Positions 12,193 to 17,848 of a stretch of 64,000 bases of DNA are shown in pieces (the first letter of the stretch is position 1; the number at the start of each line of letters is the position of its first letter). Below the pieces are notes generated by a model. The model was not told the origin of the DNA. It did not search any database and saw only the letters and a list, made by a program, of their open reading frames with translations. The stretch spans positions 186,001-250,000 of the forward strand of contig CALTCK010000001.1 of NCBI GenBank assembly GCA_943842625.1, read 5' to 3'. Source of the DNA: an uncultured Flavobacteriaceae bacterium. GTDB lineage: Bacteria > Bacteroidota > Bacteroidia > Flavobacteriales > Flavobacteriaceae. Position numbers and translations under genes: made by a program.

Positions 12193-14968
12193 TTATTTAA
12201 GCTTTTTCTTGATCGCTACTTCTCTAAAGCATTCTATAATATCGTTTTCTTTAATGTCGTTGTAATTTTTGATTTGCATACCACAATCATAACCTTTCGC
12301 AACTTCTTTAGCATCATCCTTAAACCTTTTTAAAGAGGATAACTCACCGGTATAAACTACTACTCCTTCTCGAATTAATCGGATTCCAGAATCTTTATAA
12401 ATTTTACCACTAATAACCATACAGCCTGCTATTGTTCCTATCTTAGAAATTTTGAAAGTTTCTCTAATTTCTGCAGTTCCTGTGATTTCTTCTTTCATCT
12501 CTGGAGACAACATACCTTCCATTGCATCTTTTAGGTCATTTATTGCAGCATAAATGATGGAGTACATTCTAATATCAATTTCTTCTTTATCAGCAATTTG
12601 TCTCGCATTACCCATTGGTCTTACATTAAACCCTATAATAATTGCGTCAGAAGCAGATGCTAGTAGCACATCACTTTCTGTAATAGCTCCTACCCCTTTA
12701 TGAATAATATTTACTTGTATTTCATCTGTAGATAGTTTCAGGAAGGAGTCTGTTAAAGCTTCTACTGAACCGTCAACATCACCTTTTAAGATTACATTTA
12801 ATTCTTTAAAATCTCCTAAGGCTATTCTTCGGCCAATTTCATCTAATGTTATGTGACGCTGAGTTCTGACAGATTGCTCTCTTTGCAATTGAGTTCTTTT
12901 TGAAGCAATACCTTTTGCTTCTCTTTCGTCGTCAAATACATTAAATTTATCACCAGCTTGTGGCGCACCGTCCAAACCTAGAATAGATATCGGTGTAGCT
13001 GGGCCAGCTTCTTTTATCTTATTTCCACGCTCGTCGTGCATCGCTTTTACTTTTCCACTACATTGTCCCGCTAATAAGTAATCTCCAATTTTTAAGGTAC
13101 CTCCTTGTACTAAAATAGTCGAAACATAACCTCTACCTTTATCTAAAAACGCTTCAACAACAGTTCCGTTTGCAGCTTTATTTGGATTTGCTTTAAGCTC
13201 TAATAGTTCAGCTTCTAACAAGACTTTTTCTAGTAATTCATTGACTCCATCTCCTGTTTTTGCTGAAATATCATGAGATTGAATTTTCCCCCCCCAATCT
13301 TCAACTAACAAATTCATTTGTGCTAAACCTTCTTTAATTTTATCTGGGTTTGCTGTCGGTCTATCAATTTTATTGATTGCAAAAACTATAGGAACTCCAG
13401 CTGCTTGAGCGTGGCTTATCGCTTCTTTTGTCTGGGGCATAATATCATCATCTGCCGCTATAACAATAATAGCTAAATCTGTTACTTGCGTACCACGAGC
13501 ACGCATTGCCGTAAAGGCCTCGTGTCCTGGTGTGTCTAAAAAAGTTATTTGTTGACCATCTTCCAGGGTAACACTATAGGCGCCAATATGTTGTGTTATT
13601 CCACCTGACTCACCAGCAATAACGTTTTCTTTACGAACGTAATCTAACAATGAAGTTTTACCATGATCAACGTGACCCATAACCGTGACAATAGGAGCTC
13701 TATTAGTTAAATCCTCTGGAGCATCTTCTTCTACTTGAATAGATTCTTCAATATCGGCTGTAATAAACTCTACCGAATAATCAAACTCGTCAGCAACTAT
13801 GGTTAAAGTCTCTGCGTCTAATCTCTGGTTCAATGTCACCATCATACCTAAGGACATACAAGCAGAAATAATTTGAGTTACAGGGACATCCATCATAGTA
13901 GCAACCTCACTTACAGTGACAAATTCTGTTACTTTAAGTAATTTACTTTCTGCATCTTGCAGAGCTTGGTCATCTTCTGTTTTTTGGCGATGAACATCTC
14001 TTTTTTCTCTTCTATATTTTGCTCCTTTTCCTTTTGAAGACTTTCCTTGTAATTTCTCTAAAGTCTCACGGACTTGTTTTTGCACTTCCGCTTCACTAGG
14101 CTCTTCTTTAGGAGTATGAGTTGGTTTTTTTCGACCACCTCTGTTGTTTTGGTTTCCAACACGACCGTTACCTTTTGAAGGACCTTTGCTTATTCGTCTT
14201 CGTTTACTTCTTTTTTCTTTATCTGCATCGGTGGTTTCTTTCTTTTTCGTTTCTGGTTTTTTAAATTGTGTTAAATCAATTTTTTCTCCTGTTATCTTTG
14301 GGCCATCTAATTTTTTGTATTTAGTTACTACCTTCTCAGATTCAGATATGCTTTTTTCAGAGTTTTTGCTTTCATCTATGTTAGCAATAGTTTCTTTTTT
14401 TTCAGGAGCAGTAGCTTTTTCTTGTTCTTTTGCAGGTAATCCTTTTTTCTTTTCTGAAGAAATTCCTTTTTTGATAATTTTTGAAGCATCGTTATCAGGT
14501 GTTTTTTCGTCTGTGGACTGCTCATTTTTGACAGAAATTTCTTTGTTTACAGGAGTGATGACTTCTTTTTTGTCTTGTGGACTTTTTTTCTCTTTAGGTT
14601 TAGGAGTTTTACCTTCGAGGTCTATTTTTCCAAGAGTTTTTGGACCTTCAAGTTTAACTTCAACTTTGATTAACTTTTTGGATGCTTCGATTTTCTTTTG
14701 CTTTTCTTCAAGTTCCCGCTCGGAAGCAATTCGAATCTCTTCTTTTTCTTTTCTTTTTTCCTCACCAACTTCCTTGGAGGCTACTTTTTTACTCTTATCT
14801 GTTTGAAATTCCTCCAAGAGTATTTGGTATTCTTCACTAGAAATTTTAGTTGTAGGCCGAGACTCCACCTCGTAATCCTTTTGAACTTAAATATTCAACT
14901 GCACGATCCAATGAAATGTTGAACTCGCGCAAAACTTTATTAAGTCTCATTGTTTTTGCTTCAGCCAT
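12193..14968 (-). CDS. infB: Translation initiation factor IF-2, with an apparent +1 frameshift near the N-terminus
   Basis: GTPase that brings fMet-tRNA to the 30S subunit. The long open frame (12193-14868, GTG-initiated in the ORF track) carries a Lys/Glu-rich linker, an IF2_N-like segment ([20 protein letters not shown]), the G domain (G1 [10 protein letters not shown]3 DTPGHEAF, G4 NKID) and the C-terminal IF-2 domains. Upstream, an ATG at 14968 begins [19 protein letters not shown] and runs to VEYLSSKG, the conserved flavobacterial N-terminus, preceded by AGGAG. One extra base (one of two A at plus positions 14874-14875) puts it out of frame with [10 protein letters not shown]. Removing it gives 924 residues, a normal length. 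Downstream of nusA in the rimP-nusA-infB operon. Confidence 0.93.
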
Positions 14969-15025: not shown

Positions 15026-16258
15026 TTAATCTTCAAATTCTTCTTTTAATATATTTAATACTTCCTGTATAGTTTCTTCCTCTAAATCAGTTCTTTTGAC
15101 TAATTCTTTTAGGTCATTTTCCAATACACTTTTTGCAGTATCTAATCCAATTTTTTCAAATTCTTTGATAATCCACTCATCAATTTCATCTTTGAATTCT
15201 GATAATTCTACATCTTCCTCAGCTCCTTCTCGTAACACATCAATTTCATAACCTGTTAAATAACCAGCTAAACGGATGTTGTGTCCTCCACGACCTATTG
15301 CTTTTGAAACCTCTTCAGGTTTCAATATTACCTCTGCTCTTTTGTTATCTTCATCTAATTTAATTGAAGTTATTTTAGCAGGGCTAAGCGCTCTTGTGAT
15401 ATATAACTGAGTATTGTTAGTAAAATTAATTACATCAATATTCTCATTGCCTAATTCACGAACTATACCGTGAATACGAGAACCTTTCATTCCAACACAA
15501 GCTCCTACTGGATCTATACGGTCATCATAGGAGTCTACTGCTACTTTTGCTTTTTCTCCCGGAATACGAACTACTTTCTTTACATTTATCAATCCATCAA
15601 AAACTTCTGGAATTTCTTGCTCAAATAATTTTTCCAAAAACTTAGGATGAGCTCGCGACATAACAATTGACGGCTTATTTCCTTTAAGCTCTACCCCTTC
15701 AATAATTCCCCTTACATTATCTCCTTTTCTGAAAAAATCTGATGGGATTTGTTTTTCTTTTGGCAAAATCAATTCATTACCTTCATCATCTAATAATATG
15801 ATTGCACGGTGACGAATATGATGAACTTCAGCCGTATATATTTCTCCCTCTAAATCCTTAAAGTACTTAAAAATATTTGTATTATCATGTTCGTGTATTT
15901 TAGAAATAAGATTTTGGCGCAACGCTAAAATTGAACGGCGGCCTAGGTCAATTAATTTAACTTCCTCAGCCACATCTTCACCAATTTCGTAATCGGATTC
16001 TATTTTTTGAGCATCCGTGAGTGAAATTTCTTGGTTAGGTTCTTCAACTTCACCGTCTGCAACAACCACTCGATTTCTCCAAATTTCTAAATCTCCTTTA
16101 TCTGGATTGATAATAATATCAAAATTATCATCATCACCATATTTTCTTTTTAGAGCGTTTCTAAAAACGTCTTCTAAAATAGACATTAATGTTACTCTGT
16201 CTATTAACTTATCATCTTTAAATTCTGAAAAAGAATCGATTAATGCTAAATTCTCCAT
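15026..16258 (-). CDS. nusA: Transcription termination/antitermination factor NusA
   Basis: RNA-polymerase-binding factor that modulates pausing, termination and antitermination. The 410-residue protein has the N-terminal RNAP-binding domain (MENLALIDSFSEFKDDKLID), an S1 domain (GEIYTAEVHHIRHRAIILL region), and two KH domains with CVGMKGSRIHGIVRELGNE and KAIGRGGHNIRLAGYLTGYEI. It lacks the long acidic-repeat C-terminus of some proteobacteria, as usual in Bacteroidota; an acidic tail is present instead. It lies six bases after rimP and before infB, the conserved order. Confidence 0.97.
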   Translation of the reverse strand: MENLALIDSFSEFKDDKLIDRVTLMSILEDVFRNALKRKYGDDDNFDIIINPDKGDLEIWRNRVVVADGEVEEPNQEISLTDAQKIESDYEIGEDVAEEVKLIDLGRRSILALRQNLISKIHEHDNTNIFKYFKDLEGEIYTAEVHHIRHRAIILLDDEGNELILPKEKQIPSDFFRKGDNVRGIIEGVELKGNKPSIVMSRAHPKFLEKLFEQEIPEVFDGLINVKKVVRIPGEKAKVAVDSYDDRIDPVGACVGMKGSRIHGIVRELGNENIDVINFTNNTQLYITRALSPAKITSIKLDEDNKRAEVILKPEEVSKAIGRGGHNIRLAGYLTGYEIDVLREGAEEDVELSEFKDEIDEWIIKEFEKIGLDTAKSVLENDLKELVKRTDLEEETIQEVLNILKEEFED

Positions 16259-16264
16259 ATTCTT

Positions 16265-16729
16265 CTAATTAAATTTTATCATAACTGTTGCTTCAACAAT
16301 ATCTTTATATTCTATTACCGCTTCTTTTTGAACAGTAACTTTTCCTTTACCTAAAGGTTTTGGTTCTCGAACTTTCCAACGAAGTTCAATATTTTTACTA
16401 TCTGCCTTTTCAAGTTTTCCTTGACAAACATCATTGTCTTTTGTTTTCACTTTCAAATTACGGCCAATATTTTTTAAAAATTGACGCGGAATCAGAAGTG
16501 GTTCTGATACACCAGCTGATGAAACATCCAATGAAAAATCTATTTCGTCTCGATCTATATTATGCTCTATAGCTCTACTAATAGCAATACAATCATTCAC
16601 CGTTACTCCATTATCACCATCTATAATCACTCTTATTTGGTTATTTTCAGAGACACTAAAATCGATAAGGAATAAAGATTCGTTTTCTTCTAAAGCTTTT
16701 TTAAGTAATTCTGCTACTATTTTTTTCAT
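16265..16729 (-). CDS. rimP: Ribosome maturation factor RimP
   Basis: Cytoplasmic factor needed for maturation of the 30S subunit. The 154-residue protein has the two-domain RimP layout: the N-terminal half with IRVIIDGDNGVTVNDCIAIS and the DFSLDVSSAGVSEPL motif, and a C-terminal SH3-like domain (GKVTVQKEAVIEYKDIVEATV). First gene of rimP-nusA-infB. Its leader holds a strong hairpin with a U tract just before the start codon, suggesting control of the whole operon by attenuation. Confidence 0.95.
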   Translation of the reverse strand: MKKIVAELLKKALEENESLFLIDFSVSENNQIRVIIDGDNGVTVNDCIAISRAIEHNIDRDEIDFSLDVSSAGVSEPLLIPRQFLKNIGRNLKVKTKDNDVCQGKLEKADSKNIELRWKVREPKPLGKGKVTVQKEAVIEYKDIVEATVMIKFN

Positions 16730-16742
16730 TAATTTTAGCTAT

Positions 16743-16769
16743 AAAAAGAGGGGACTTTTTGGTCCCCTC
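16743..16769 (-). promoter_or_regulatory. Terminator-like hairpin in the rimP leader (candidate attenuator)
   Basis: On the minus strand GAGGGGAC and GTCCCCTC pair perfectly (8 bp, mostly G-C) and are followed directly by TTTTTA. The structure lies between the rimP promoter box and the rimP ATG, about 14 bases before the start codon. Flanking UAGCU and AGCUA could pair as an outer stem spanning the U tract. No upstream minus-strand gene needs a terminator here, since the neighbouring usp gene is divergent. Confidence 0.65.
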
Positions 16770-16794
16770 AGCTAGTTTCGTATCAATTTAGGTG

Positions 16795-16802
16795 CAAATA
16801 TA
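16795..16802 (-). promoter_or_regulatory. Promoter -7 element of rimP-nusA-infB
   Basis: The minus strand reads TATATTTG followed by CACC, an exact TAnnTTTG match with the usual flavobacterial downstream context. The predicted transcript would start near 16788 and give a leader of about 60 nt that contains the hairpin described separately. A clear -33 TTG was not found. Confidence 0.6.
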
Positions 16803-17763: not shown

Positions 17764-17775
17764 ATATGATGTTTG

Positions 17776-17848
17776 TTGGCCCACTAGGGCTCGAACCTAG
17801 ACTCTTCTATACCAAAAACAGACGTGTTGCCAGTTACACCATGGGCCA
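17776..17848 (-). tRNA. tRNA-Gln (anticodon TTG)
   Basis: The minus strand folds as a 73-nt tRNA: acceptor TGGCCCA pairing with TGGGCCA plus discriminator A, a D arm with GGTGTAACTGGC, an anticodon stem TCTGT/ATAGA with loop TTTTGGT (anticodon TTG), and a T arm with GGTTCGAGCCC. CCA is not encoded. A well-formed promoter lies directly upstream and a terminator downstream. Confidence 0.95.

Follow-up and report, generated by a model that had tools for sequence, protein, structure and literature searches.

The window, by which we mean the whole stretch of 64,000 nucleotides that was analysed, carries a rimP-nusA-infB operon on its minus strand, each gene being recognised by a protein family profile above its cut-off. 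Upstream of rimP lies a divergently oriented gene for a universal stress protein, and a tRNA-Gln gene lies on the same strand as the operon. The features of the locus are as follows.

12193..14868, minus strand: infB, encoding IF2 (TIGR00487, 814 bits against a cut-off of 424; the listed GTG start may be wrong)
15026..16258, minus strand: nusA (TIGR01953, 362 bits against a cut-off of 253)
16265..16729, minus strand: rimP, the first gene of the operon (NCBIfam NF002531, 200.8 bits against a cut-off of 123)
16736..16774, minus strand: outer pairing of UAGCU (16774-16770) with AGCUA (16740-16736), from folding, in the window's genus only
16743..16747, minus strand: U-tract UUUUU, then AUAG, read from the sequence right after the stem
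16748..16769, minus strand: terminator hairpin of 8 bp, -14.6 kcal/mol, supported by covariation and phylum-wide presence
16788..16791, minus strand: predicted transcription start, placed from the position of the box about 4-7 nt past it
16795..16802, minus strand: promoter -7 box TATATTTG, which fits the Bacteroidota consensus TAnnTTTG
17775..17848, minus strand: tRNA-Gln (TTG), upstream, with its own terminator at 17762-17735

Read along the minus strand, the leader has the order TATATTTG-CACCTAAATTGATACGAAACTAGCT-GAGGGGAC-CAAAAA-GTCCCCTC-TTTTT-ATAGCTAAAATTA-ATG, the ATG being that of rimP, 13 nt past the fifth U. The hairpin consists of a 5' arm GAGGGGAC (16769-16762), a CAAAAA loop (16761-16756) and a 3' arm GTCCCCTC (16755-16748). 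Folding of the 65-nt leader yielded -18.9 kcal/mol, whereas shuffled sequences averaged -8.2 (z = -4.4; 0 of 200 shuffles), and a terminator scan of the window recovered the hairpin with its tail. The first-pass annotation had proposed a promoter box at 16795-16802, followed by a GC-rich hairpin and a U tract shortly before the rimP start; all three are present at those places on the minus strand. A clear -33 element is not visible upstream of the box in the window leader. On the opposite strand no T-run follows the stem, so the signal faces rimP only. The same annotation had suggested that the flanking UAGCU and AGCUA repeats allow an alternative outer pairing. Folding indicates that this pairing can form; its use as a switch was rejected, since the two repeats pair outside the terminator stem without competing with it and are confined to the genus.

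The leader is also defined by what it lacks. Across the leaders, the distance from the expected transcription start to the stem is about 22 nt (7-29). No antiterminator was found in any leader, the best pairing of the upstream leader with the 5' arm reaching -3.5 kcal/mol against -14.6 for the hairpin, and a leader peptide was rejected because a closed ATG open reading frame precedes the stem in 1 of 112 leaders. Given this short stretch, the weak pairing and the missing reading frame, neither a riboswitch nor an antiterminator nor a leader peptide fits, and control must therefore act on RNA polymerase or on the terminator itself. An Rfam scan returned no family above threshold. The rimP family RF01770 had no match in the window and none above its cut-off in 20 relatives, where at E values up to 1 its many scattered sub-threshold matches were judged uninformative. 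The S15-Flavobacteria leader RF03161 scored 21.6 bits against a gathering cut-off of 46.5 and was rejected as an identity, the match being chiefly to the promoter; a weak L20 match from Rfam was dismissed as a chance or promoter match.

Conservation was assessed among near relatives and across the phylum. RimP was located in 26 of 39 genomes ranging from genus to order, and 25 of these 26 oriented rimP upstream regions contain the -7 box, the hairpin and the U-run, with the box 58-77 nt before rimP; in the exception (L019) the box lies further upstream and the hairpin is different and weaker. Most of the 26 relatives carry the stem GAGGGGAC/GTCCCCTC followed by TTTTTAT, a tail kept in most Flavobacteriales leaders. 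The phylum sample comprised 148 Bacteroidota genomes picked through nusA and thus independently of the hairpin. There, rimP precedes nusA in 107 of the 108 nusA upstream regions read. Under one rule set, a terminator of -9 kcal/mol or lower occurs in 95 of the 107 rimP leaders against 4.2% of dinucleotide shuffles; with a limit of -7 kcal/mol the figures are 101 of 107 and 8.6%. The stems themselves vary by lineage and include GAGGGGAC, GAGGCACGC, TCGCCC, GTGGGG, GTGAGCG and ATGGGC, among others. The conservation that the first-pass annotation had proposed to look for in other Flavobacteriaceae was found, and it extends well past the family to the phylum. Two quantities were excluded from the evidence, namely the paired percentage of the phylum-wide stem count, for which hairpins had been picked by requiring pairing, and a comparison of the U-tract with 3' terminators, which was biased by anchoring.

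From 19 leaders a model (R1) was derived, which matched 54 times in class-level loci. All 8 stem pairs show changes on both sides among these 54 matches, with every cell paired. The covariation score of 0.299, compared with 0.104 after shuffling and no more than 0.110 with slid partners, comes from an alignment that was fitted to the structure and so leans towards it. Evidence independent of that alignment is provided by a compensating swap in two genomes that share a genus (G094 and G121, loci L056 and L059), in which the inner stem is exchanged for GAGGCACGC/GCGTGCCTC and pairing is kept. The earlier reading had been made to depend on covariation of the stem in relatives, and at class level all 8 pairs display it. 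Three model matches (L105, L108 and L109), which are not near rimP, were regarded as off-target.

The element is specific to this operon. Within the 39 relatives, its exact hairpin pattern appears at 20 places, each of them at rimP. At least 119 contigs of the GTDB contig collection contain the exact motif, at 120 sites, and RimP lies downstream in 118 of the 120 listed. Among the matches listed, rimP starts 31-53 nt past the hairpin start at the 79 sites measured, the -7 box stands ahead of 112 of the 118 named rimP hairpins, and the spacing from box to hairpin is near-constant, with a median of 26 nt. One of the two remaining sites (L264) is a palindromic rimP site read in reverse. The other (L212:192-221) is an exact hairpin without rimP on a contig labelled Rhodospirillaceae, which is possibly misbinned. 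In the same loci a -7 box also precedes 34 other genes, of which only 2 have a terminator in the interval from box to start. Among the matches listed, approximately 44 of the 118 named loci have a tRNA-Gln (TTG) gene upstream of rimP in the same orientation, and this gene was probably next to the operon in the ancestral arrangement. In three Bacteroidales-type contigs (L228, L254 and L260), this tRNA gene stands directly before the hairpin, and the two share one promoter.

Genomes without rimP help to separate the genes that the hairpin could serve. RimP was absent by profile search in some Flavobacteriales and in one deeper genome, G185 and G205 being among the genomes concerned; elsewhere in the order this profile does detect RimP, with 115 of 148 genomes positive. 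Five genomes from four families (G022, G028, G185, G205 and G146) lack rimP and keep the hairpin 40-81 nt before nusA. Four of them (G022, G028, G185 and G205) show the order tRNA-Gln, promoter box, hairpin and nusA, with no space for rimP, the box of G022 being the variant TATATTCG. In G146, nusA is preceded by a box and by a GGGC/GCCC hairpin that ends in U6, the stem having only 4 pairs and -6.6 kcal/mol. R1 itself detects the hairpins of G205 and G022, and in G034 and G032 a hairpin lies further up, at 138 and 168 nt. The loci L311, L314, L318, L319 and L316, from several lineages, lack rimP between hairpin and nusA and retain both. Because genomes without rimP keep the hairpin before nusA, the hairpin appears to serve nusA (or infB) and to track nusA rather than rimP, which points to nusA or infB as the controlled gene. 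Since all but one of the loci examined have infB after nusA, NusA and IF2 are inseparable by linkage, and IF2 may be the target of control. In reduced endosymbiont-like genomes the hairpin was lost in all 5 that were readable, and it is thus dispensable there. The loci L321, L329, L332, L333 and L315 belong to reduced genomes (0.3-0.6 Mb) of the order that have neither rimP nor the hairpin. The retention of the hairpin directly before nusA in five genomes without rimP is a new observation.

Taken together, we consider it likely that the element belongs to the rimP-leader type and is a minimal transcription attenuator, at which NusA would most likely stimulate termination. RNA polymerase would start at the TATATTTG promoter and make an intrinsic terminator within about 45-50 nt; part of the polymerases would stop and release a short leader RNA, and the rest would read through into rimP-nusA-infB. 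With a leader that has no sensor, control would come from factors bound to the polymerase. NusA, itself encoded by the operon, would stimulate termination at the hairpin, such that high NusA would lead to more stopping and low NusA to more read-through. We infer termination in vivo with an efficiency set by NusA, which would most likely use the hairpin to restrain its own synthesis. Feedback of NusA on its own termination, which the first-pass annotation had called attractive, emerges as the best-supported mechanism, as the hairpin stays with nusA after rimP loss and B. subtilis offers a precedent (PMC12288461). A further step, which on balance we lean towards, is that the Bacteroidota-wide leader terminator acts as a dedicated sensor of NusA level, with selection keeping the hairpin with nusA after deletion of rimP; polymerase-bound NusA would then gauge its own abundance at one standard hairpin.

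Other explanations account for parts of these observations. The hairpin could be a fixed, unregulated partial terminator whose constantly lowered read-through sets the output of the operon without feedback. A leader with neither a sensor nor an alternative structure accords with this, and sequence cannot show regulation; however, a weaker promoter would suffice for such a purpose, conservation across the phylum is found in one operon only, one that encodes a termination factor, and feedback is known in B. subtilis and E. coli. We therefore regard a fixed terminator as unlikely. It is decidedly improbable that RimP, IF2, a ribosomal protein or another RNA-binding protein binds the GGGGAC hairpin and controls termination, translation or decay, given that the inner stem of G094 and G121 has changed to GAGGCACGC/GCGTGCCTC and that other families use other stems. 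RimP is an unlikely general partner, as the hairpin persists without rimP. Nevertheless, the stem sequence in Flavobacteriales is kept far past the needs of pairing, and the near-invariant GAGGGGAC there, which exceeds what a bare terminator needs, might be the binding site of another protein.

Least credible, and very improbable, is that the hairpin serves an upstream gene or tRNA as its 3' terminator, or acts as an insulator that blocks upstream read-through. The three Bacteroidales-type contigs favour it, since a tRNA-Gln directly before the hairpin means that the hairpin also ends the tRNA transcript there. Against it, the operon's own -7 box precedes the hairpin, at a spacing that hardly varies, both in the window and in most relatives. 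Of 98 classifiable leaders, 55 have a divergent gene upstream of rimP and 43 a co-directional one, and the terminator is present whichever orientation that gene has; with the neighbour so often divergent, the hairpin is not its 3' terminator. For the window, this origin was rejected on account of divergent neighbours and the tRNA-Gln's own terminator.

Under the attenuator reading, these results would add Bacteroidota, which have their own promoter type and make little use of Shine-Dalgarno sequences, to the range of the most widespread attenuator predicted in bacteria. The loss of rimP provides a natural experiment that points to nusA or infB, not rimP, as the controlled gene, and NusA feedback becomes directly testable in a third phylum by a simple reporter. 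The leader is a real, conserved and attenuator-like element of a known kind that has hardly been described before in Bacteroidota.

Several known systems resemble this leader. In B. subtilis, NusA has been shown experimentally to be autoregulated through NusA-stimulated termination in the 5' leader (PMC12288461); common to both is a terminator of the nusA operon at which NusA, and not an alternative RNA structure, acts there and is proposed to act here. In E. coli, the terminators t1 and t2 stand ahead of rimP, and the operon is under the control of NusA (PMC6511841). Its metY-rimP-nusA-infB leader is similar in having terminators before rimP and an upstream tRNA gene, metY (tRNA-fMet) paralleling tRNA-Gln here, and differs in having two terminators rather than one; the NusA feedback in this comparison is that of E. 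coli. In Flavobacterium psychrophilum, a transcribed, structured 5' region before rimP, reported as conserved in other Flavobacteriaceae and without an Rfam match, is named in a list (PMC9723704). It is probably the same element, in which case the feature was noticed earlier, although the main text does not describe it. Naville and Gautheret (2010, PMC2965389) described the rimP-leader as more ubiquitous than any other attenuator; its conserved terminator has G-rich and C-rich arms, an antiterminator is lacking, and NusA is named as the leading candidate regulator. It was reported from Firmicutes, Gammaproteobacteria and other species, Bacteroidetes not being named in the main text. Rfam RF01770 represents the same operon and proposed role with a 102-position model, below whose cut-off the element here falls. 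Gene position, a short stem with G-rich 5' and C-rich 3' arms, a U-stretch, the lack of a visible antiterminator, a distance of 4-130 nt from the gene and an operon-specific motif are shared with the rimP-leader. The stem here is mostly GGGGAC/GUCCCC, compared with GGGc/gCCC, the exact GGGC/GCCC occurring in L016 and G146, and some Bacteroidota lineages use other stems. As an operon 5' leader with a G-/C-rich stem and a U-stretch, free of an antiterminator or larger sensor and with a motif absent at other terminators, the element is by every sequence test a rimP-leader attenuator.
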